Part shown: piece by piece, positions 51,066 through 61,821 of the stretch
Layout: each line of letters begins with the position of its first letter
Numbering within the stretch: position 1 is the first letter of the stretch
Assembly (NCBI GenBank): GCA_945861435.1
Contig: CAMAUX010000020.1
Location: 1 to 64,000 of the forward strand
DNA: 64,000 nt
Direction of reading: 5' to 3'
Source: Chthoniobacter flavus
Lineage (GTDB): Bacteria; Verrucomicrobiota; Verrucomicrobiia; Chthoniobacterales; Chthoniobacteraceae
Translations under genes and position numbers: made by a program
Notes under the pieces: generated by a model
What the model was told of the DNA's origin: nothing
The model's database searches: none
The model's input: the letters and a program-made list of their open reading frames with translations, nothing else

Positions 51066-52274
51066 ATGACCAACCTATTGAAGCGCATCGCGCTCCCTCT
51101 CGTTGCGGGCATCGCGCTCGCGCTCCCCATCCCAAGCGCTTTCGCAGCTGATGTGAATGTGATCGCGCGGGGGACACTGGACAACTCGCGCTTCCAGTTT
51201 GAGAAGACAGGCAAGGGTCACGTGGCCTTCCTCGGCGGCTCCATCACGGAGATGGAAGGTTACCGGCCGATGATCATGGAGATGCTTGGCAAGCGCTTCC
51301 CCAAGACGGAATTCACCTTCACTGCGGCAGGGATTTCCTCCACCTGCTCTACCACAGGCGCGTTCCGCCTCAAGGATCACATCCTCGCAAAGGGACCGGT
51401 GGACCTGCTCTTCGTTGAGTTCGCGGTGAACGACGATCAGGATGCGCATCACAGCAGGGAGGAATGCATTCGCGGCATGGAGGGGATCATCCGTCACCTC
51501 CGCACCGCCAATCCGGGGGCCGATGTGGTGATGACTTTCTTCCTCAACGAGCACTCCATGGCTGAGTACAACGCGGGACGCGTGCCGCTGCCCGTCGCCG
51601 CGCACACCGAGGTGGCGGAGCGCTATCAAATCCCGACCATCAACCTCGCAAAGACCGTCACCACACGCATCGCAGCCGGGGAGTTCGACTGGAAGAAGTT
51701 CGGCGGCGTCCATCCCGCCCCGTTCGGCAACCGGATCGCTGCGGACATGATCGGCGAACTCATGGACGCGAGTTGGAGGGCGCTTATCGACCCAGCGCAT
51801 CCCCAATCTCCCCACGTCCTGCCTCAAGTGCTCGATCCGATGAATTACGGGAGGGGTCGTTTCCTCGAACTATCCGCGGCTCAACTTGGCACCGGGTGGA
51901 AGATCCAGGTGCCTGACTGGAAGGCGCTGCCCGGCGGCAAGCGCGCACGTTTCACCAAGGATCCGCTGCTGGAGGCGGTGGAGCCCGGAGCCGAACTCAC
52001 CCTCGCCTTCGAGGGCACGGCCATCGGCGCATTCGTCGTTGCCGGTCCGGATGCAGGGATGCTTGAAGCCGTGATTGATGGAGGCGCACCCGTGAAGGTG
52101 AACCTGCTGCACGCTCACAGCGCGGGGCTGCATTATCCGCGGACGGTGATGTTCGCCGACACGCTTCCCGATGGCCGCCACACGCTGCGTCTCAAGGTGG
52201 CGTCCGATGCCGATCCCAAGAGCAAGGGACACGCGGCGCGCATCCTGAACTGGACGGTAAACGACGGCCGATAA
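51066..52274 (+). CDS. Secreted SGNH/GDSL hydrolase
   Basis: The 402-residue protein has a signal peptide (MTNLLKRIALPLVAGIALAL). SGNH blocks follow: block I FLGGSITEMEGY with the catalytic serine, block II glycine at TAAGISSTC, and block III FVEFAVNDDQDA. Block V reads GGVHPAPFGN, with His present but Gly where Asp is usual. A second domain from about residue 250 is beta-rich and may bind carbohydrate. Relatives deacetylate glycans or glycopeptides, so polysaccharide deacetylation is a reasonable inference. ATG 51066 is well placed for the signal peptide. Confidence 0.85.
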   Translation: MTNLLKRIALPLVAGIALALPIPSAFAADVNVIARGTLDNSRFQFEKTGKGHVAFLGGSITEMEGYRPMIMEMLGKRFPKTEFTFTAAGISSTCSTTGAFRLKDHILAKGPVDLLFVEFAVNDDQDAHHSREECIRGMEGIIRHLRTANPGADVVMTFFLNEHSMAEYNAGRVPLPVAAHTEVAERYQIPTINLAKTVTTRIAAGEFDWKKFGGVHPAPFGNRIAADMIGELMDASWRALIDPAHPQSPHVLPQVLDPMNYGRGRFLELSAAQLGTGWKIQVPDWKALPGGKRARFTKDPLLEAVEPGAELTLAFEGTAIGAFVVAGPDAGMLEAVIDGGAPVKVNLLHAHSAGLHYPRTVMFADTLPDGRHTLRLKVASDADPKSKGHAARILNWTVNDGR

Positions 52275-52311
52275 CCGGCGCGTTGCAGGCTTCGCAGCTT
52301 AGCGTGCCGGT
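52274..52311. terminator. Possible shared hairpin between convergent SGNH and peptidase genes
   Basis: ACCGGCGCG (52274-52282) pairs with CGTGCCGGT (52303-52311) over nine positions with one G-T wobble. It spans both stop codons. No T-run follows, so this is a weak terminator candidate. Confidence 0.3.
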
Positions 52312-54497
52312 TGGAATGCCGGGTCGCCGAACTGCCACAGGAGGAAGGACCACACGTCAGCCAGTTCCGCATGGCGCTGCGCGCGGGTGGATCCGATCCC
52401 ATGTCCGGCGTGGTAATCGACTCTGAACAAGACCGGTCTCCCGCTGGAAGAGGCGGCCTGCAGGCGAGCGGTGGTTTTTGCGGAGATCCACGGTTCTACG
52501 CGCGGATCGTTGATGCCATGCGTGAGAAGCACGCCGGGGTACGCCGTCCCGTCCTTGATCTGGTGAAGCGTGCTCATGCGCAGCAGGGCTTGGAACTCCG
52601 CCGGATCCTTGGTGGATCCGAACTCGGGGATGTTGGGCGGGCCATTGAGCGTGGTCTCGAAGCGAACCATGTCCGTGCAGCCGACGGAAATGTGGGCGGC
52701 TGCGAAGAGATCGGGTCGCTCGGTGATGGAGCGTCCGATGGTGATGCCGCCCGCGCTGCCGCCCTGTCCGGCAAGGCGCTCGGGGGCGGTGTAGCCTGCG
52801 TGCACGAGGTGCTCCGCGCAGGCGATGAAGTCCTTCCATGTGTTCGGCTTCGTGAGCTTGCGCCCTGCGTGATGCCATTGTTTGCCGAACGCGCCGCCGC
52901 CGCGCACATGAGCGATGGCAAGGACGCCGCCTCGCTCCAGCCATGCGAGGTTGACCGGTTTGAAGAGCATCGGTGCGGTGAAGCCATACGCGCCATAGCC
53001 CGAGATCAGCGCGGGGTGTGAGTGGTCGCGCTGGAGGTCGCGCCGATGCAGGATGGAGAGCGGCACGGACACTCCATCGTGGCTGGGCACCATCACCTCG
53101 GTGGAGGTGAGCCAGTCCGGGGCGTCGAATTTTCCGGTGGGGAGGAGGCCTGTGTCGCGCAGCGCACGCGCATCGGGATCGTAGTGGCGGAGGCGGCCCG
53201 CACGCGTCCAAGAGCGGGTGCTGACAAAAACCCCGGGCAGCAGGGGGCTTGAGGCGGCGACGACTGCTGCGGGTTCGTCTGCGGGGAGTTCCAGCATCTC
53301 GGCTTCCACGGGGCCATCCGTGTACGGCACGCGCAGGATCTTGTTCGGCACACCGGCGAGGATGCCCACGTACAGGGCATCCTGAGCCACAGCGAGCGAG
53401 TCGACCACACGTTCACCCGGAGGCACGACGACATGGGCGGTGGTGATGCTGGGTTGATCAAGGGAGGTCCGCACGACCTTGAAGCGCGGGGCATCACTGG
53501 CGCTGAGAAGGAAGATGTCGTCCCCGTGCACGGCGAATTCGGTGACGAGATCCGTGCGGTCGCACACCTTGATCCATCGCAGTTCCACAGTTCCGATGGA
53601 ATCGCGGCGGGCGGCGTAAAGGGTGAGGTCGGTTTCGTCGCCGTGGCGAATCTGACCGATGGCCCACGCGGAGTTGGCTGGCAGGAGAACGGCGGGAAAG
53701 TCCATCTCCGCCATGGTGGGCGAGCCCTGTGCACCATGGGCGAAGAGGCGCGTGTCCGCCTCCACGGAAGTGCCGAGCCGATGCAGGAGTGCTTCGGTAA
53801 ATTTATAGCCGTCGGCTGCCGGGGCATCAGGCGCCAGAGCGCGGCGGCGGCTGTAGACGAAGGCGCTGCCATCGGGCAGCCAGTCCGGAAGGGCGTACCC
53901 GGCTTCGATGCGGTCGATGCTTTCGGGCAGGTCCTTTTCTGTGTCGAGGTCGAATACGCGGAGGGTTGTCTGTTCGGAACCGGAGCTCGCAAAGCCATAG
54001 AGGACGTGGCGGCCATCGGGCGCTACGCGGTAGAAGCTGAGACTGAAGTGGCCGCCGTCCGCGGCGGCAGGAAAGCGTTCGGGATCGACGAGGAGTTTCT
54101 CGGGTCCGTTCAGGCCCTGGCGCACATGGAGTTTGGCTACGTTCTCGGAGGCCTTCTGCTTGAGGTAGAAGAGTGCGCCGCCCGGCATCGGCGTGAGTGC
54201 GTTCAGGCTGTACGGACTGCCAGCGTCCAGTTCGCGGATGCGCTCCAGCAGAGGGCTCCGGCCCGGAAGGTTGGCGAGCGAGTGTTCGGTGAAGTCCGCC
54301 TGTTGCCGCACCCATGCTTGGACTTCGGGGCTCTTGAAGTCCTCGAAGTATCGGTAGGGGTCGGTGACGGATTCGCCGTGGATCTGCTCGACCACGGGGC
54401 GCGGCGGCGCGACAGGCTGGGGTGCGGCAGGGCAGGAGAGGGGAGTCGTGCTCATGCTCAGCGCGGCGAGGAGGGCGTGAGATCTGGGCGCACTCAT
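52299..54497 (-). CDS. Prolyl oligopeptidase (family S9)
   Basis: The 732-residue enzyme has the N-terminal propeller typical of S9A (DPYRYFEDFKSPEVQAWVRQ) and the catalytic domain with GQGGSAGG (serine), GINDPRVEPW (aspartate) and YHAGHG (histidine). It cleaves short peptides after proline. An N-terminal hydrophobic stretch ending PLSCPAA could be a lipoprotein or secretion signal. Its start overlaps the upstream sulfatase stop (ATGA), which fixes ATG 54497. Pairing of a sulfatase with a peptidase suggests work on sulfated glycoproteins (inference). Confidence 0.93.
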   Translation of the reverse strand: MSAPRSHALLAALSMSTTPLSCPAAPQPVAPPRPVVEQIHGESVTDPYRYFEDFKSPEVQAWVRQQADFTEHSLANLPGRSPLLERIRELDAGSPYSLNALTPMPGGALFYLKQKASENVAKLHVRQGLNGPEKLLVDPERFPAAADGGHFSLSFYRVAPDGRHVLYGFASSGSEQTTLRVFDLDTEKDLPESIDRIEAGYALPDWLPDGSAFVYSRRRALAPDAPAADGYKFTEALLHRLGTSVEADTRLFAHGAQGSPTMAEMDFPAVLLPANSAWAIGQIRHGDETDLTLYAARRDSIGTVELRWIKVCDRTDLVTEFAVHGDDIFLLSASDAPRFKVVRTSLDQPSITTAHVVVPPGERVVDSLAVAQDALYVGILAGVPNKILRVPYTDGPVEAEMLELPADEPAAVVAASSPLLPGVFVSTRSWTRAGRLRHYDPDARALRDTGLLPTGKFDAPDWLTSTEVMVPSHDGVSVPLSILHRRDLQRDHSHPALISGYGAYGFTAPMLFKPVNLAWLERGGVLAIAHVRGGGAFGKQWHHAGRKLTKPNTWKDFIACAEHLVHAGYTAPERLAGQGGSAGGITIGRSITERPDLFAAAHISVGCTDMVRFETTLNGPPNIPEFGSTKDPAEFQALLRMSTLHQIKDGTAYPGVLLTHGINDPRVEPWISAKTTARLQAASSSGRPVLFRVDYHAGHGIGSTRAQRHAELADVWSFLLWQFGDPAFQPAR

Positions 54498-56227
54498 TTG
54501 CCCATCTTGATGTACTCCTCGCGATTGATGTCACCGCTCTTGTCCTTGTCGAACCTGAGGAAGTTCTGCGCGGCGTGTTCTGGATCCTTCTGCTTCGCCA
54601 TGAACTCCTCCTTGGTGAGCTTCCCGTTTTTGTCGAGGTCGCGCTTGTCGAAGGACGCGCCGCGTTGTGCGGCCACATCTTCAGCGCCGGGCACGTGTGG
54701 GGGCGTTGAAGCGGAGGGAGAGGCGGGAGCGGGTGTGCTGGAACCTGTGGGGACTGCCGCCGGTTGCAACCCGGCCTCCACCTTGGATCCTTTATTCCCC
54801 TTCTTGCCACCCTTGGTGGATGGGATCGGCGCACCTCCGGATGCCGGCGGAATGGGTGGGGGCAGGAACTGGGAGAGTTCCTCGACGACGGCCTTGTGCT
54901 CTGGCTTGGAGGCGATGTTGACCGTTTCGTCGGGGTCGTTGTCCTCATCGTAAAGTTCGGTGCTGACGACCTTGTTCTCCTTGAGCGTGCGCCAGAGCAC
55001 GAGGCGCCAGCGGTCTGTGCGGATGCTGTAGCCCATCACATTGCCTTCGGGAGCTTTGCGCGGGTACTGGCTGAGGGCGTGTTTGTTGACGCTGGCGGCC
55101 GGATTTTGGAGGACCGGCTTGAGGCTGACTCCGGCGAGGCCCTCCACCTTGGGAAGTCCGCAGACATCCGCGAGTGTGGGGTACACGTCGACGAATTCCG
55201 CTAGCGATGCGCTCTTCTGGCCGGCGGTGCCGATGCTCGGGACGGCGATGAAGAGCGGGGCGCGCGCGGCGAGTTCGTAGTTGGTGTGTTTGTGCCAGAG
55301 CCCGTGCTCGCCGAGCTGCCAGCCATGGTCGCCCCAGAGCACGATGACGGTCTTGTCCGCGAGCCCCTCGCGATCCAGAGCATCGAGTACGAGGCCCAGC
55401 TGCGCATCCATGTAGCTCGTGGCGGCGTAGTAGCCGTGGCGCAGTTCGCGAGCGAGGTCTTCCGGAATGGGGTTGCCCTTGGGGATGTTGCCGTAGCTGT
55501 GCAGTTCACTGTTGTTGTGGCCGGCGTATTCCGGCGCGCCCTCGGGCAGCTTGTCGGTGGGGGATCCGGGGATCTTGGATCTGTCGTAGAGGTCCCAGTA
55601 TTTCTTAGGCGCGACGAAAGGCAGGTGGGGCTTGGCGAAGCCGACTGCGAGGAAGAACGGCTGGTCCTTCTTCTTGAGCTCCGAAAGCGTCTGCGCTGCG
55701 AGCCGTGCGACCTTGCCGTCGAGGTAAAAGTCGTCTGCGACATCGGCGTTCTCAAAGGCCGCGCCCTTGTCTCCGATGGAGCTTTCCTTCTTCGCGAACT
55801 TCTCGGCGTTGGGCGCTCCCCAGGGCACTGACCACGATGGGCCGTCGTCAAAACCTCCGTGGTAGATCTTCCCCATGCCCTGCACGAAGTAGCCGTTGTT
55901 TTTGAAGTGCTGCGGCAGGGTCACGACGTTTGGCAGGGCCACGCGGAAATGGGTTTCAAGGTCCCACACGCGCGTGCTGTCGGGCCGGTGCCCGGTGAGC
56001 ATCGAGGTGCGGGACGGGCTGCACACGGCCTGTGAACAGTAGGCCTTGGTAAAGATCATCCCGGCTTTGCCGAGGCGATCGAGGTTCGGCGTCTTCACGA
56101 CCGAGTTGCCGTAGCAGCCGATGTCGGGGCGCAGATCGTCGACGGCGATGAAGAGGACGTTGAGCTTACGCTCCGCGGCAAGGGCCGACGTCGCGAGGCA
56201 CAGCAGCAGGGGGAGGAGTGCACGCAT
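54494..56227 (-). CDS. Secreted sulfatase with C-terminal EF-hand pair
   Basis: The 577-residue protein has a signal peptide (MRALLPLLLCLATSALA). The sulfatase core shows LFIAVDDLRPDIGCYGN, the formylglycine motif CSPSR (Cys 69), YHGGFDDGPSW, GFAKPHLPFVAPKKYWDLYD and LWGDHGWQLGEHGLWHKHTN. These resemble iduronate-2-sulfatases and choline sulfatases. After about residue 460 a Pro/Gly/Ser-rich linker leads to two EF-hand loops, DLDKNGKLTKEEF and DKDKSGDINREEY. Calcium-binding tails on sulfatases are a lineage-specific addition. ATG 56242 is an alternative start. It is coupled to the peptidase gene downstream. Confidence 0.9.
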   Translation of the reverse strand: MRALLPLLLCLATSALAAERKLNVLFIAVDDLRPDIGCYGNSVVKTPNLDRLGKAGMIFTKAYCSQAVCSPSRTSMLTGHRPDSTRVWDLETHFRVALPNVVTLPQHFKNNGYFVQGMGKIYHGGFDDGPSWSVPWGAPNAEKFAKKESSIGDKGAAFENADVADDFYLDGKVARLAAQTLSELKKKDQPFFLAVGFAKPHLPFVAPKKYWDLYDRSKIPGSPTDKLPEGAPEYAGHNNSELHSYGNIPKGNPIPEDLARELRHGYYAATSYMDAQLGLVLDALDREGLADKTVIVLWGDHGWQLGEHGLWHKHTNYELAARAPLFIAVPSIGTAGQKSASLAEFVDVYPTLADVCGLPKVEGLAGVSLKPVLQNPAASVNKHALSQYPRKAPEGNVMGYSIRTDRWRLVLWRTLKENKVVSTELYDEDNDPDETVNIASKPEHKAVVEELSQFLPPPIPPASGGAPIPSTKGGKKGNKGSKVEAGLQPAAVPTGSSTPAPASPSASTPPHVPGAEDVAAQRGASFDKRDLDKNGKLTKEEFMAKQKDPEHAAQNFLRFDKDKSGDINREEYIKMGK

Positions 56228-56431
56228 GGCGCAGAAGCTCATAAAGCCACGGATTCATAAGGGAAAGCAGCTTTGCAAATCTGCGCGCTTCCCGTGGGGG
56301 TGTATATCCCAGATGCCCGTTGCCATGGGGAAGGTCTTCGTGACCAAATACGCGCCCACCCCGCATCCACCCCTCCCCGCGTCTTGCGTGTCTGATTTGA
56401 AGGCGCGCGCGATGCGCGGTGTTCCCACCCC

Positions 56432-59400
56432 ATGCAAAACATCCGCACCTTCCTTGTTGTCGTCGCCGCATCCTGCCTCTTCGTCGAACGAGTTCAGGCA
56501 GCCGAACCCGTTGCTGTCGACCGGATCCGTTTCGTGCCAGCGCCCGACCGGGGGGAGGGCATGGTGGGCGGGAGGGTCGCGGGGTCCAACGTGTCCGCGT
56601 CCGAGGGGTTCACCGTGCTTGCCGAAATCAAGACGGCACCGAGGGCCGGCGAATGGAACGAACTGAGCATTGGCAACAAGGCGCCATACCGCTGGGTGCG
56701 TTATGAAGCGCCGGCGGGATCGCGCGGCAACCTCGCTGAGCTCGAGTTCTACGCGGGGGCGCAGCGGCTTCGGGGGACGGGCTTCGGCTCCCCTGGCTCG
56801 TTCGCACCAGGCGGCAATTGGAAGACGGTGTTCGATGGGAAGCTGGAGACGTGGTTCAACTCGAGCAACCCGGACGGTCAGTTTGTGGGGGTGGATTTGG
56901 AAGAGCAGGCGTCGACCGCCCGTCCTGTGATCACGCCTGGCGGGGGCGACTGGGACAAGCCGCAGTTGGTCACGATGAAGTCCGCAACGCCCGGGGCTGT
57001 GATCCGTTACACGCTCGATGGGACGAATCCCGGGGCGGGCACGGGGAAGGTGTTCACGGAGTCCTTTACTGTGGAAGCCAACGCCACGCTGGTCGCGACG
57101 GCTTTCAGCGACAGGCTGGCGCCGAGTCCTCCATCCACCTCGACGATCTGGATCGGGAAACAGCGCGCGGCGATGAATTCCTTCCATGTCGGCAACAGCC
57201 TCACGGGCAATGCGAGTCGCTTCAAAACCTTCATCCGGACCGCGGGTGGGCGCGATGACTTCCCTGCGTACCTGATTGGCGGGTCGCTCACGGTGAAGCT
57301 CTGGAACGAGTCCCATGGCGCAGACCGCGCGCGCTGGGAGGAGACGTACGGGAAGGCGGTGCATCCGCTCGACTACTTCACGCTGCAGCCGCGCGACTTC
57401 AACCTCGAGCAGGAGACTGAGAACGCCACGCGCTTCCTCAAGCTCGTTCGGGAGAAGTCGCCGGATGTCCAGCCATGGCTCTACGCGGAGTGGGTGGAGA
57501 TGGACCGCCGACGTCCGAGCGACCGCGGAGAGGTGCCCAGTTTCCAGATGAGCAAAACCTTTCCGGCGCTTATGTGGCAGGAGTCCATGGGAGCGATGTT
57601 GCTCTACAACGAGGAGGTCCAGCACCGCATCGCCGCTCAGCATCGCGAGGGCAAGCCTGTGCGTATCCTCCCCACGGCGCTCGCGCTTGGCTGGGCGCGC
57701 ACTCTCATCGATCAGGGCGAGTTGCCCGGTGTGCCTCCGGGTGAAGCGGGTTTTTACGGGCTGCTCTTTGAGGACCAAGTGCATGTGAATCCCGCTGGAT
57801 GCTACCTCGTGGGGCTGACGTGGTACGCCGCGCTGTATCGTGAATCGCCCGAGAACCGGCTTCTGCCCATTGGCACGAACCTGAGCTCCGAGCAGGCCCG
57901 CGTGTTGCAGCGCCTCGCATGGGAGGTGGTTCGCAATTATCCCGACTGCGGCCTTTATGAGAACGGTTCAGAGCCGTGCGCGAAGCCCGAGATTGTGCAG
58001 GACGGCAAGCGCATCACTTTCAAGTCGGGGACGCCGGGTGCATGGTTCCGATACACGCTCGACGGCACGGAGCCGACGCGCGCGAAGGGGTACGTGTACT
58101 GTGGCGCGATCAGCGTGCAACCGGGCATCCGTGTGAAGGCCGTGGCTTATAAAAGTGGCATGGCTGAGAGTGCGGTGGCTGCGCTCGCGGCGCCCGAGGT
58201 GGCGAAGGCGCCGCCTGCCGCAGAAGGCTGGGGCGCGTATGCAATCGTGCCTGTGAGCGCGCAGAAGATGGTCCTCGAAGTGGTCGGCGCAGCGGGAGAC
58301 GGCGGGCTGGCCGAGGGCGCGGGGATTTCGATCAACACCCCTTCCGGCGCCGCCGCTCAGCAGTGGGTGATCGCGCCGAGGGAAGGCGGCCTGCTTGCCA
58401 TTCAATCCTCTTCGCGTCCGGACCTCGTGCTGGCGGTTGCTGGAGGTGCAACGAAGATCGGATCGCCTGTGGCTCTTGAAAAGGACAGCGGCAAGCCATG
58501 GCAGCGATGGTCCCTGAAGAGGCAGGAGAACGGCAGCTACAGCCTGACGCCTGCGCATGCGCCCGGGATGGGTCTCGACCTTTTGGGAGGCAGGCAGAAT
58601 CCCGGAGCGAAGGTGGATCTTTGGGAAAACAAGGGTGGCGATCAGCACCTGCAGTGGATGATCCGTCCGCTTGCTGGAAGCGGCGTGCAAGGGCCCGTCG
58701 TACAGGAACCGGTTCGCGGCACGTACGAGCCGCCGGCTATCAAGGCCGAGGCGATCCTGCCGGGGACCATCAAGCAGTTCACTTTTGCGCAGAGTAAAAT
58801 CTTCCCGGGTACGGTGCGCGACGTGACGGTGTTCATTCCCGCGCAATACGACGGGTCCAAGCCGGCGTGCGTGTACGTGAAGACCGACGGGTACAACCCG
58901 CGCGAGAAGACGCTCATGGAGACCATGATCGCCACAGGGGAGATGCCTGTGACTGTCGGTGTGTTCGTGCGGCCGGGTGAGCTGCCCGCCCCCATGAAGG
59001 GAACCCTCGGCCGGCGCAACCGCGACTTTGAATACGACGCAGTGAATGACAACAAGGTGCGCTTCCTCGCTGGCGAGCTCCTGCCCTACGTGGTGAAGGA
59101 ACTGGGGCTCAACCTTTCCACCGACGGCAACGACCGCTGCATCTCCGGTGGAAGCAGCGGCGGGATCGCTGCGTTCACCGCGGCGTGGAACCAGCCCGAG
59201 GCTTTCAGCCGTGTGTACGCGGCGAGCGGCAGCTGGGTCGCATTCCGTGGAGGCCACGAGTTCCCCACGATGGTGCGCAAGTTCGAGGCGCGGCCCATTC
59301 GCTCCTACCTCACCACCGCCACGCGCGACATGGAGAACTGCGCTGGCGACTGGTTCCTGCTCGATCAGGAAATGGACAAGGCGCTCAAGTTCTCCGGGTA

Positions 59401-60376
59401 CGACTACCAATTCCGTACCATCGACGGAGGGCATGTCGCGGGCTACGGCGAGAACTGGCAGGAGGCCATGGCTTATCTCTGGAAGGGCTGGCCAGAACGG
59501 GTGAAAGCCGGCACCAGTGCTCCGCGCGCACGGGAGATTCTGATTCCCGGCGAGGACTGGCAGTTGGTGGCGGAGGGCTTCAAGAGCACGCGCGGTCCCG
59601 CAGTGAACGCGAAGGGCGAGGTCTTCTTCGCGGACACCACCAACAACAAACTCCACAGGATCGGTCTGGATGGGAAGGTCGCGGAATTCGTTGCGGACTC
59701 TGGTGCGGCGCACTGTGTCACGATCGGAGCCGATGGCACGCTGTACACGGTGTCGGAGAAGAGCGGGAAGCTCATGAGCTACGACGCTGCCGGCGCCGCC
59801 ACCATGGTGATGGATGGGATTCTTGGGCATTCCATTTTTGCGTGTTCGGACGGCGGGCTTTACGTCACGAGTAACGGGGACAAACCGGCGGAAGTGGGCA
59901 GCGTCTGGTTCATCAAGGACGGGAAGAAGACGCGCGTGGACACTGGACTGAAGTTTGCGACGGGCATGGCGTGCCGTCCCGACCAGTGGCTGCTTTCCGT
60001 CGCTGAGGGGCATTCCAAGTGGGCCTGCAGCTATCAGGTCAATGCCGACGGTTCGCTCACGAACAAGGAGCGCTTCTTCCATTTCCATGTGGAGGACTGG
60101 GATGACGATGCCGGCGTGGAATCCCTGTGCTACTCGCTGGAGGGGCGCCAGTTTGCTGCATCGCGGAGCGGGGTGCAGATCAGTGCCGACGACGGCCCCA
60201 CCCAGGTCATCCTGCCCGTGCCCGGCCGCGGTCGCGTGACCGGCGTCTGCCTCGGAGGCGCTGAGCAGGACACGCTTTTTGCGTTCTGCGGAAACAAGGT
60301 GTGGCGTCGCAAGGTGCAGCACCACGCGATGGGCGCGTTTTCGCCATGGACGAAGGTGGGCGGCACGAAGCTCTAG
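56432..60376 (+). CDS. Giant secreted multidomain protein: two esterase-like domains, lectin and SMP-30 propeller
   Basis: The 1,314-residue protein has a signal peptide (MQNIRTFLVVVAASCLFVER), then: (1) an F5/8-type C-like module (about 60-155, NLAELEFYAGAQRLRG, DGKLETWFN); (2) a chitobiase C-terminal-like module (170-245, GAVIRYTLDGTNPG); (3) an SGNH-like domain (250-480) with HVGNSLTG, serine near residue 256, and DQVHVNPAGCY, histidine near 451; (4) a second chitobiase-type module (530-580, WFRYTLDGTEPT); (5) a ricin-B-lectin-like domain (606-750) with QQW and LQW motifs; (6) an alpha/beta esterase of the enterochelin-esterase type (783-1026) with GGSSGG (serine near 908) and DGGHVAGY (histidine near 1001); (7) an SMP-30/gluconolactonase-like propeller (1040-1314, GEVFFADTTNNKLHRIGLDG). 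The domains point to deacylation and hydrolysis of bound polysaccharide. Substrate is unknown. It diverges from the sulfatase-peptidase pair. Confidence 0.88.
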   Translation: MQNIRTFLVVVAASCLFVERVQAAEPVAVDRIRFVPAPDRGEGMVGGRVAGSNVSASEGFTVLAEIKTAPRAGEWNELSIGNKAPYRWVRYEAPAGSRGNLAELEFYAGAQRLRGTGFGSPGSFAPGGNWKTVFDGKLETWFNSSNPDGQFVGVDLEEQASTARPVITPGGGDWDKPQLVTMKSATPGAVIRYTLDGTNPGAGTGKVFTESFTVEANATLVATAFSDRLAPSPPSTSTIWIGKQRAAMNSFHVGNSLTGNASRFKTFIRTAGGRDDFPAYLIGGSLTVKLWNESHGADRARWEETYGKAVHPLDYFTLQPRDFNLEQETENATRFLKLVREKSPDVQPWLYAEWVEMDRRRPSDRGEVPSFQMSKTFPALMWQESMGAMLLYNEEVQHRIAAQHREGKPVRILPTALALGWARTLIDQGELPGVPPGEAGFYGLLFEDQVHVNPAGCYLVGLTWYAALYRESPENRLLPIGTNLSSEQARVLQRLAWEVVRNYPDCGLYENGSEPCAKPEIVQDGKRITFKSGTPGAWFRYTLDGTEPTRAKGYVYCGAISVQPGIRVKAVAYKSGMAESAVAALAAPEVAKAPPAAEGWGAYAIVPVSAQKMVLEVVGAAGDGGLAEGAGISINTPSGAAAQQWVIAPREGGLLAIQSSSRPDLVLAVAGGATKIGSPVALEKDSGKPWQRWSLKRQENGSYSLTPAHAPGMGLDLLGGRQNPGAKVDLWENKGGDQHLQWMIRPLAGSGVQGPVVQEPVRGTYEPPAIKAEAILPGTIKQFTFAQSKIFPGTVRDVTVFIPAQYDGSKPACVYVKTDGYNPREKTLMETMIATGEMPVTVGVFVRPGELPAPMKGTLGRRNRDFEYDAVNDNKVRFLAGELLPYVVKELGLNLSTDGNDRCISGGSSGGIAAFTAAWNQPEAFSRVYAASGSWVAFRGGHEFPTMVRKFEARPIRSYLTTATRDMENCAGDWFLLDQEMDKALKFSGYDYQFRTIDGGHVAGYGENWQEAMAYLWKGWPERVKAGTSAPRAREILIPGEDWQLVAEGFKSTRGPAVNAKGEVFFADTTNNKLHRIGLDGKVAEFVADSGAAHCVTIGADGTLYTVSEKSGKLMSYDAAGAATMVMDGILGHSIFACSDGGLYVTSNGDKPAEVGSVWFIKDGKKTRVDTGLKFATGMACRPDQWLLSVAEGHSKWACSYQVNADGSLTNKERFFHFHVEDWDDDAGVESLCYSLEGRQFAASRSGVQISADDGPTQVILPVPGRGRVTGVCLGGAEQDTLFAFCGNKVWRRKVQHHAMGAFSPWTKVGGTKL

Positions 60377-60450: not shown

Positions 60451-61821
60451 ATGAAAATGCCCCACCCCGACAAGGCCGGCTGTTCCGGTTTCCAACAACT
60501 TGGGCTGCGTCGTCGCGATGCACTCCGCATCGGCTTTTGCGGTGCGCTCGGGCTGGGGCTTTCGGACCTGCTACAGCACGAGGCGCGTGCGATGATCGAG
60601 CCCGGCTCGGTGAAGGAGGGGCGGGCGAAGAGCGTGATCCACCTCCATCTGCCGGGTGGCATGGCGCAGCAGGAGTCGTGGGATCCGAAGCCCGAGGCGT
60701 CCTCGGAATACCGGGGTGCATTTGGGGTGGTGAAGACGAACACGGGGGAGATCGTGAGCGAGAACTTTGCGCGCCTCGCGAAGGTGGCGGACAAGCTGAC
60801 GATCCTGCGCTCGGTGACGGGCAAGATCCCGGACCACGGCCAGGCGACATACCATTTGTTCACCGGCTACACGCCGACCACGGTCATCGATTACCCGCAG
60901 ATGGGCAGCGTGGTGTCGCACCTGCTCGGTGAGCGCAAGGGGCTCCCTCCCTACGTCGCCGTGCCGAGTTCGAACGGGTTTGCCGGCGGGACGGGATTTC
61001 TCAGCAGCAAACACGGTGCGTTCCAGCTCAACGCCGACCCCGGTGCGGGTGGAGAGTTCAAGGTGCGGGACTTCAGTGTGCCGGCGGGTGTCACCATGGA
61101 GCAGTTTGAGCGGCGCAAGAGTGCGCGTGCCATTGTGGAGAAGCATCTGCGCGCCCTTGATGCGGACACCGACAGGCTCAACACCATGGACGAGTTCCAC
61201 CGGAGCGCCTACGCCCTGCTGACGAGCGACGATGCGCGTCGTGCCTTCTCGCTGGAAGGTGAGAGCGAGGCGATGCGGGACCTCTACGGCCGCGGCTACA
61301 AACTCAAGCAGAACGCGCCCGCGGCCGTCGGCGAGCGGCTCCTGCTCGCACGCCGCATGGTGGAAGCCGGGGTGCGCTTTGTGACGGTGAACTACGGATC
61401 GTGGGACTCGCATGTGGGGATCAAGGAGACCAGCAAGGAGCAGATGCCCGCGCTCGACCACGCTATCACGGGTCTGATCACCGATCTCGACCAGCGCGGT
61501 CTGCTCGAGAGCACCCTCGTGATGGTCACCACCGAGTTTGGGCGCACCCCGAAGATCAACAAAGACAACGGGCGCGATCACTGGGCGCGGGTTTATTCGA
61601 TGCTGCTGGCGGGCGGGGGGATCACGCGCGGCCAGATCTATGGGGCTTCCGACGCCACGGCTGCGGAGCCCGCGCGCGACGAGGTGAAGCTCGAGGACTA
61701 CCTCGCGACCGTTTACCACCAACTCGGCATCGACTCCAACGAGAGGCTGGCGGCGTTTGGCGGCACGCGTCCGATCGACATTGTGAAGGGCGGGCGGGTT
61801 GTGAAGGGGGTTCTCGCTTAG
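60451..61821 (+). CDS. DUF1501 protein (third copy, divergent)
   Basis: The 456-residue protein has DUF1501 landmarks: SVIHLHLPGGMAQQESWDPK, ILRSVTGKIPDHGQATYHLF, RFVTVNYGSWDSHVG, EFGRTPKINKDNGRDHWARV and YSMLLAGGGITRGQIYGASD. The N-terminus has LRRRDALRIGFCGALGLGLS, an export signal resembling a Tat signal. It is much more distant from the two tandem DUF1501 proteins at 8203-11098 than those are from each other. It starts 74 bases after the giant multidomain gene, and the IPT/PPC protein follows 52 bases later. ATG 60451 gives the expected leader. Confidence 0.9.
   Translation: MKMPHPDKAGCSGFQQLGLRRRDALRIGFCGALGLGLSDLLQHEARAMIEPGSVKEGRAKSVIHLHLPGGMAQQESWDPKPEASSEYRGAFGVVKTNTGEIVSENFARLAKVADKLTILRSVTGKIPDHGQATYHLFTGYTPTTVIDYPQMGSVVSHLLGERKGLPPYVAVPSSNGFAGGTGFLSSKHGAFQLNADPGAGGEFKVRDFSVPAGVTMEQFERRKSARAIVEKHLRALDADTDRLNTMDEFHRSAYALLTSDDARRAFSLEGESEAMRDLYGRGYKLKQNAPAAVGERLLLARRMVEAGVRFVTVNYGSWDSHVGIKETSKEQMPALDHAITGLITDLDQRGLLESTLVMVTTEFGRTPKINKDNGRDHWARVYSMLLAGGGITRGQIYGASDATAAEPARDEVKLEDYLATVYHQLGIDSNERLAAFGGTRPIDIVKGGRVVKGVLA

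Follow-up and report, generated by a model that had tools for sequence, protein, structure and literature searches.

Architecture of the locus

The 64,000-nucleotide (nt) stretch analyzed here, referred to as the window (positions 1 to 64,000 of contig CAMAUX010000020.1, Chthoniobacter flavus assembly GCA_945861435.1), carries an open reading frame (ORF) of 1,314 codons for a single esterase fusion protein that begins with a Sec-type signal peptide and would be secreted. It is fairly likely, in our view, that this protein is a secreted, multi-modular carbohydrate esterase that removes acyl groups from glycans probably containing galactose. An earlier note on this DNA had described one uninterrupted frame with seven modules, two separate catalytic serines and a ricin-type lectin, placed divergent to a sulfatase-peptidase pair and upstream of a DUF1501 gene, and the results and coordinates collected in Table 1 agree with it on each of these points.

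Pfam, profile and PDB comparisons resolved the seven modules, from the N-terminus, as a CBM62-type module, a first spacer, a DUF4886-like SGNH domain, a second spacer, a ricin-type lectin, a CE1-like esterase and an SMP-30-like propeller. In the Pfam scan, the matches above the curated cut-off were CHB_HEX_C_1/Fn3_assoc (twice), RicinB_lectin_2, Esterase (PF00756) and SGL (PF08450). Both catalytic triads, S256-D448-H451 and S909-D966-H1001, are intact.

Table 1. Features of the fusion gene and of its neighbors. Positions are those of the window and residues those of the fusion protein; aa, amino acids.
Feature	Residues	Positions	Strand	Remarks
Fusion ORF	1-1314	56432-60376	+	1,314 codons; one frame; sole plausible gene at that place
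Sec-type signal peptide	1-24	56432..56503	+	Cleavage near VQA/AEP; read from translation
Circularly permuted CBM62-type galactose-binding module (candidate)	25-161	56504..56914	+	Second half of domain at 28-108, first half at 112-157
CHB_HEX_C_1/Fn3_assoc spacer 1	169-235	56936..57136	+	Pfam; VIA structure match
SGNH esterase domain, DUF4886-like (predicted)	244-513	57161..57970	+	S256 57197-57199; Q319; D448 57773-57775; H451 57782-57784
CHB/Fn3_assoc spacer 2	528-583	58013..58180	+	Pfam
Fusion joint of halves A and B	586-596	58187..58219	+	Joined here and in L036; halves encoded separately in L038 and L040
Ricin-type beta-trefoil lectin	597-748	58220..58675	+	Pfam; three QxW-like motifs, W645, W693, W742
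CE1-like alpha/beta esterase (PF00756)	773-1028	58748..59515	+	S909 59156-59158; D966 59327-59329; H1001 59432-59434
Six-bladed SMP-30/SGL-like propeller without canonical metal ligands		59534..60373	+	R1054, H1094, H1133, T1177, E1230 at corresponding positions
GDSL esterase, CE2_N-like C-terminal part		51066-52274		Probable carbohydrate esterase; near fusion gene
Prolyl-oligopeptidase family S9 peptidase		52299..54497	-	4-nt overlap with sulfatase stop
Sulfatase, CSPSR maturation motif, C-terminal EF-hands		54494..56242	-	Divergent to fusion gene
DUF1501 gene		60451..61821	+	Start codon 74 nt past fusion-gene stop codon
PPC-like protein, 818 aa		61874..64000	+	Weak PPC match below cut-off; extends beyond window

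Two mobile halves in one frame

Searches of related genomes and GTDB contigs revealed that the fusion protein is made of two separate evolutionary units, half A (residues 1-592) and half B (residues 595-1314). Half B alone, about 740 aa long, is common in Verrucomicrobiota, is found also in Planctomycetota and Armatimonadota, and has a lectin-less form in Bacteroidota; half A was present in 5 of 213 genomes of the order. The two are fused here and in the relative L036, whose 1,698-aa protein has an extra N-terminal serine hydrolase of the beta-lactamase fold (PF00144, abbreviated BL). BL is fused to B in L037 and L056 and to A in L081 and L109, A and B are adjacent genes in L038, a 334-aa gene lies between them in L040, and a PF00144-like gene adjoins A in L110. 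With slashes separating adjacent genes, the arrangements seen are A+B, BL+A+B, BL+B, BL+A, A/B, A/x/B and BL/A. In the tree of half B the window protein clusters with L036 and L037 (SH-aLRT, a Shimodaira-Hasegawa-like approximate likelihood ratio test, of 97), and another BL+B fusion lies elsewhere; because these fusions occupy separate places in the tree, fusion states must change readily. The linear "factory order" that the earlier note had treated as a feature of the enzyme is thus not fixed, as the halves occur separately, side by side or fused to a PF00144 hydrolase.

Two other arrangements of these modules were observed. Elsewhere in the same genome (L117:1-2969, G000:C6), a PF00144 serine hydrolase 72% identical to that of L036 shares one chain with an FGE-sulfatase-like domain and BNR repeats. 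At L111:6437-11898 (G018:C51), A-type genes form a tandem array that precedes two sulfatases; its final copy is apparently split into fragments of 438 and 124 aa.

GC content by codon position was coding-like over the full ORF (third position 0.73-0.84 in nine blocks), and therefore no frameshift is visible in it. The same A-B join lies in one frame in L036 (contig CALQFT020000093.1), which is 75% identical to the window protein. Comparison of the two indicated purifying selection in every module, the propeller included, with third-position changes ∼3-4 times more frequent than first- and second-position changes on both sides of the join. One could suppose that the ORF is an artefact, two genes joined through an assembly or sequencing frameshift, given that L038 and L040 encode the two halves separately. 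However, the join recurs in L036 within a longer ORF of an independent genome, the coding signal here is unbroken, the tree of half B places the window protein with BL+A+B and BL+B fusions, and the second signal peptide that the separately encoded half B of L040 possesses is not present at the join. Because the same join recurs at 75% identity in an independent genome, with third-position-biased changes on both sides, a frameshift fusion, a concern that the earlier note had itself raised, is excluded for practical purposes, and we regard such an artefact as extremely improbable.

A circularly permuted CBM62-type module

Among solved structures, the first module is closest to the CBM62 carbohydrate-binding module of Clostridium thermocellum Xyl5A (CtXyl5A; PDB 2yb7, 2yfu, 2yg0 and 5g56), with 30% identity and a Z score of 9.4 over residues 24-109 of the fusion protein. 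A phmmer search of the PDB matched this domain twice with the order swapped, residues 29-108 aligning to chain positions 59-138 and residues 110-158 to positions 4-53; the family profile gave the same swapped order, and residues 28-108 and 112-157 correspond to the two parts of the domain. We then ran a canonical-order CBM62 profile, built from six domains of other Verrucomicrobiota (L144-L147), on the single and the tandem-duplicated module sequence. The single copy aligned to profile positions 51-131 and then 1-47 (52.7 and 23.4 bits), and the duplicated sequence aligned to positions 1-131 end to end (83.5 bits). The swapped order was found in 7 of 10 family members; the other three (L038 and two L111 genes) are without the FDG half. 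We conclude that, at the sequence level, the first module is a natural circular permutation of a CBM62-type domain, and it may bind galactose-type glycans. Although whole-domain similarity and both parts were found, the chain order of the strands differs from that of CBM62, and we do not claim membership in that family in the strict sense. A literature search of partial coverage returned no report of a permuted CBM62.

CBM62-like domains permuted at another cut point (profile ∼75-130, then 1-80) occur in YD/RHS-looking proteins of related genomes (L148:902-2287, L149:718-3699 and L150:1-3063). Candidate tandem CBM copies in G001, G023 and G024 were rejected, the cross-junction matches being permuted copies with the other cut point in other long proteins.

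Two esterase domains, spacers and a lectin

Residues 244-513 gave no Pfam match above the cut-off, the score to DUF4886 (PF16227; SGNH clan, solved chain 4i8i) being 13.4 bits against the required 26.7; 8 of 13 relatives match DUF4886 weakly (best E-value 0.0013). A PDB profile search with the alignment of this domain retrieved no SGNH chain, and the bridge was made instead by comparison with DUF4886 members of related genomes, to which hhalign aligned it at 98.6% over 244 columns (∼21% profile identity), with the GNSL, GGS, T-(L/I)-Q and H-x-N-x-x-G motifs and the Ser and His residues in register. S256, D448 and H451 are invariant in the 13 relatives, in an alignment that includes stand-alone 300-aa proteins. 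Profile comparison and the conserved Ser, Asp and His thus identify residues 244-513 as a probable DUF4886-like SGNH esterase domain.

The two chitobiase-type modules proposed in the earlier note are present according to Pfam, and they are non-catalytic Ig/Fn3-like spacers: structure comparison with VIA matched residues 161-241 to 8ayr with a Z score of 12.3 and a root-mean-square deviation (rmsd) of 1.5 over 73 residues. A Foldseek search with an AlphaFold2 (AF2) model of half A returned mostly Fn3-like matches to the spacers.

In half B, the ricin-type lectin (PF14200) scored 60.8 bits against a cut-off of 25.6, and all 49 relatives with the domain retain its W645, W693 and W742. The alpha/beta esterase scored 42.4 bits against a cut-off of 22, and every one of its 57 homologues keeps S909, D966 and H1001. 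The solved structures closest to it include a putative esterase (5vol), CE1 and feruloyl esterase structures (the CE1 protein 7b5v, 8bbp and 6rzn) and the enterochelin esterase 2b20. Foldseek and VIA output for half B was filled by the propeller, and the esterase and lectin were therefore not placed by structure.

A propeller without the canonical metal ligands

The SGL match scored 43.7 bits against a cut-off of 26.3. In the AF2 model of half B (mean predicted local distance difference test, pLDDT, of 89), VIA matched the propeller to 3e5z (Z score 33.8, rmsd 2.4 over 266 residues), XC5397 (32.3), DFPase (∼31) and SMP-30 (29), and the model predicts a six-bladed SGL fold. In DFPase, E21, N120, N175 and D229 are the metal ligands; E21Q, N120D, N175D and D229N are named as active-site mutants in PDB titles. 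These columns were read after aligning the family of half B with ten canonical SGL proteins and, from related genomes, six esterase-SGL paralogues. Nearly all of the canonical proteins carry E, N, N and D, as do three or four paralogues (L019, L022, L023, and L020). The family of half B has R1054, H1133, T1177 and E1230 at these positions. Across 57 family members, the first position is never E, the second is N in 2, the third is N in 1 and the fourth is never D. The combination R-H-H-T-E, in which H1094 is the fifth position, is present in 28 of the 57, and the two His residues are both present or both absent in 55.

The rates of nonsynonymous change (dN) were 0.104 for the propeller and 0.102 for the esterase. 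Because the propeller evolves as slowly as the esterase despite the loss of the ligands, selection evidently maintains it for a role outside canonical SMP-30 chemistry. Most simply, it would serve the esterase in binding or in packing, or else be a site with changed chemistry. The gluconolactonase-like propeller of the earlier note therefore stands as a fold, shared with SMP-30, gluconolactonases and DFPase (PF08450), and not as the E/N/N/D metal site; we do not claim membership in the SMP-30 lactonases.

Neighboring genes

Beyond the PPC-like gene, the contig carries a PSCyt2/PSD1 gene and two more genes. Homologues of the fusion gene often adjoin sulfatases, a GH5 gene or the conserved 334-aa gene, and among relatives the sulfatase, S9 peptidase and DUF1501 genes seen here recur as neighbors only sporadically. 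The genomic setting, with a CSPSR sulfatase, a GDSL/CE2_N esterase and GH5 or sulfatase genes beside homologues, fits glycan breakdown. A conserved protein of 320-380 aa with no Pfam match adjoins the B gene at L040:7721-8725 and also in L038, L075, L076 and L084. A 1,330-aa ORF with no Pfam match lies downstream in the DUF1501/PSCyt cluster at L116:7936-11928 (G000:C20).

Discussion

We propose that two modules, the ricin-type trefoil and the permuted CBM62-type domain, would keep the protein attached to a glycan whose residues most likely include galactose or N-acetylgalactosamine. The DUF4886-like SGNH and CE1-like domains would act as serine esterases, each on its own acyl decoration, and Fn3-like spacers lie in between. 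Near the binding sites, two kinds of acyl groups may be removed. Such a division of labor retains part of the order of events suggested in the earlier note, namely binding a glycan, removing its esters and then opening lactones: two glycan-binding-type modules and two intact esterase triads are consistent with the first two steps, and the last is not supported, all four SMP-30/DFPase ligands being replaced in the whole family.

Several observations weigh against a carbohydrate esterase. CE1-like folds also act on non-carbohydrate substrates, such as enterobactin and mycolates, and no glycoside hydrolase directly adjoins the window gene. In the SGNH domain, Gln (Q319, in TLQP) takes the place of the Asn that classical SGNH enzymes have in Block III, although the aligned DUF4886 members also have Gln there (consensus TIQQ). 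The AF2 model of half A, made from a shallow alignment of five sequences, had a pLDDT <50 in the SGNH region, and for this reason no fold-search result was used for that part. Furthermore, DUF4886 itself is a family of the SGNH clan whose activity is not known (PMC9487903).

If the substrate were not a polysaccharide, the alpha/beta-propeller pair might be an enterochelin-esterase-like enzyme acting on a siderophore or another small-molecule lactone. The enterochelin esterase profile PRK10439 does match the domain (E-value 4.9e-8), though far short of its cut-off, the PDB matches include 2b20, and a lectin-less paralogue resides on Klebsiella plasmids. However, feruloyl and CE1 structures score equally well or better, a ricin lectin is fused to the pair across Verrucomicrobiota and Planctomycetota, with a CBM and an SGNH esterase added here, and several relatives lie in sulfatase-rich neighborhoods, all of which makes a siderophore esterase improbable. 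Still less credible is a sequential factory in which a metal-dependent, gluconolactonase-like propeller opens sugar lactones after de-esterification. The above-threshold SGL match, the fold similarity to gluconolactonases and DFPase (Z scores of about 30-34) and the retention of the ligands in esterase-SGL paralogues speak for it, but the ligand columns led us to reject this step, R, H, T and E replacing E, N, N and D family-wide, and Vgb-type and designed propellers figure no less than lactonases among the nearest PDB sequence matches.

A different possibility is that R1054, H1094, H1133, T1177 and E1230 form a new catalytic or metal site of different chemistry, which would make the protein a three-activity enzyme. 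The residues at channel positions have changed together, with the His pair linked, and the propeller is under strong purifying selection. On the other hand, the 28 R-H-H-T-E members fall mostly in one part of the tree, so the joint change may be a single event, deeper family members are without either His, and the five residues could form a sugar-binding or structural channel; we therefore consider a new site unlikely, albeit worth entertaining. The boldest version, a three-site secreted enzyme with two serine esterases and a propeller whose concerted Arg-His-His-Thr-Glu channel replaces the SMP-30 site with its own chemistry, anchored by the permuted CBM62 and drawn from glycan de-acylating modules that shuffle among proteins (PF00144 hydrolase, DUF4886-like SGNH and CE1-like), we consider unlikely and put forward as speculation. 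The carbohydrate esterase with two serine active sites remains our preferred reading.

Fused acetyl-feruloyl esterases of Bacteroides ovatus and Flavobacterium johnsoniae, which join a CE6 (SGNH) to a CE1 domain, have been shown to act with intramolecular synergy (PMC7110780). Like them, the fusion protein has an N-terminal SGNH-type and a C-terminal CE1 alpha/beta esterase in one chain with a module between; unlike them, its SGNH part is DUF4886-like, and it additionally has a ricin lectin, a permuted CBM62-type module, Fn3-like spacers and a propeller. Pfam detected no SASA match, that is, no CE6/SASA-type SGNH domain, in the fusion protein, and we do not claim CE6 membership. The CE6-CE1 esterases of Bacteroidota are the functional precedent for a design that is built here from other families. 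The order of the esterase-propeller core is shared with esterase-SGL proteins of 570-620 aa (L019, L020, L022, L023 and WP_048298747.1 of a Klebsiella plasmid), which, unlike the fusion protein, are without the lectin and the SGNH half. A 600-aa relative of this core, 30% identical to the window protein, is encoded on Klebsiella pneumoniae plasmid NZ_CP079174.1 (L151:3956-5761), and esterase-propeller relatives on Klebsiella and Shigella plasmids adjoin LysR and AraC regulator genes.

Fused esterases of such a kind are already known, and the unexpected parts are the permuted binding module and the rebuilt propeller channel. The former is, at the sequence level, a natural circular permutation within a carbohydrate-binding module family, and the latter defines a lineage in which a lactonase propeller retains its fold and selection without its catalytic metal site. 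Automatic annotation would label the fusion protein a gluconolactonase. That a DUF4886-like domain is naturally joined to glycan-binding modules and a CE1-like esterase points to a concrete substrate class for DUF4886. Finally, the three hydrolase modules, found fused, adjacent or alone, offer a compact example of how glycan enzymes are assembled in Verrucomicrobiota.

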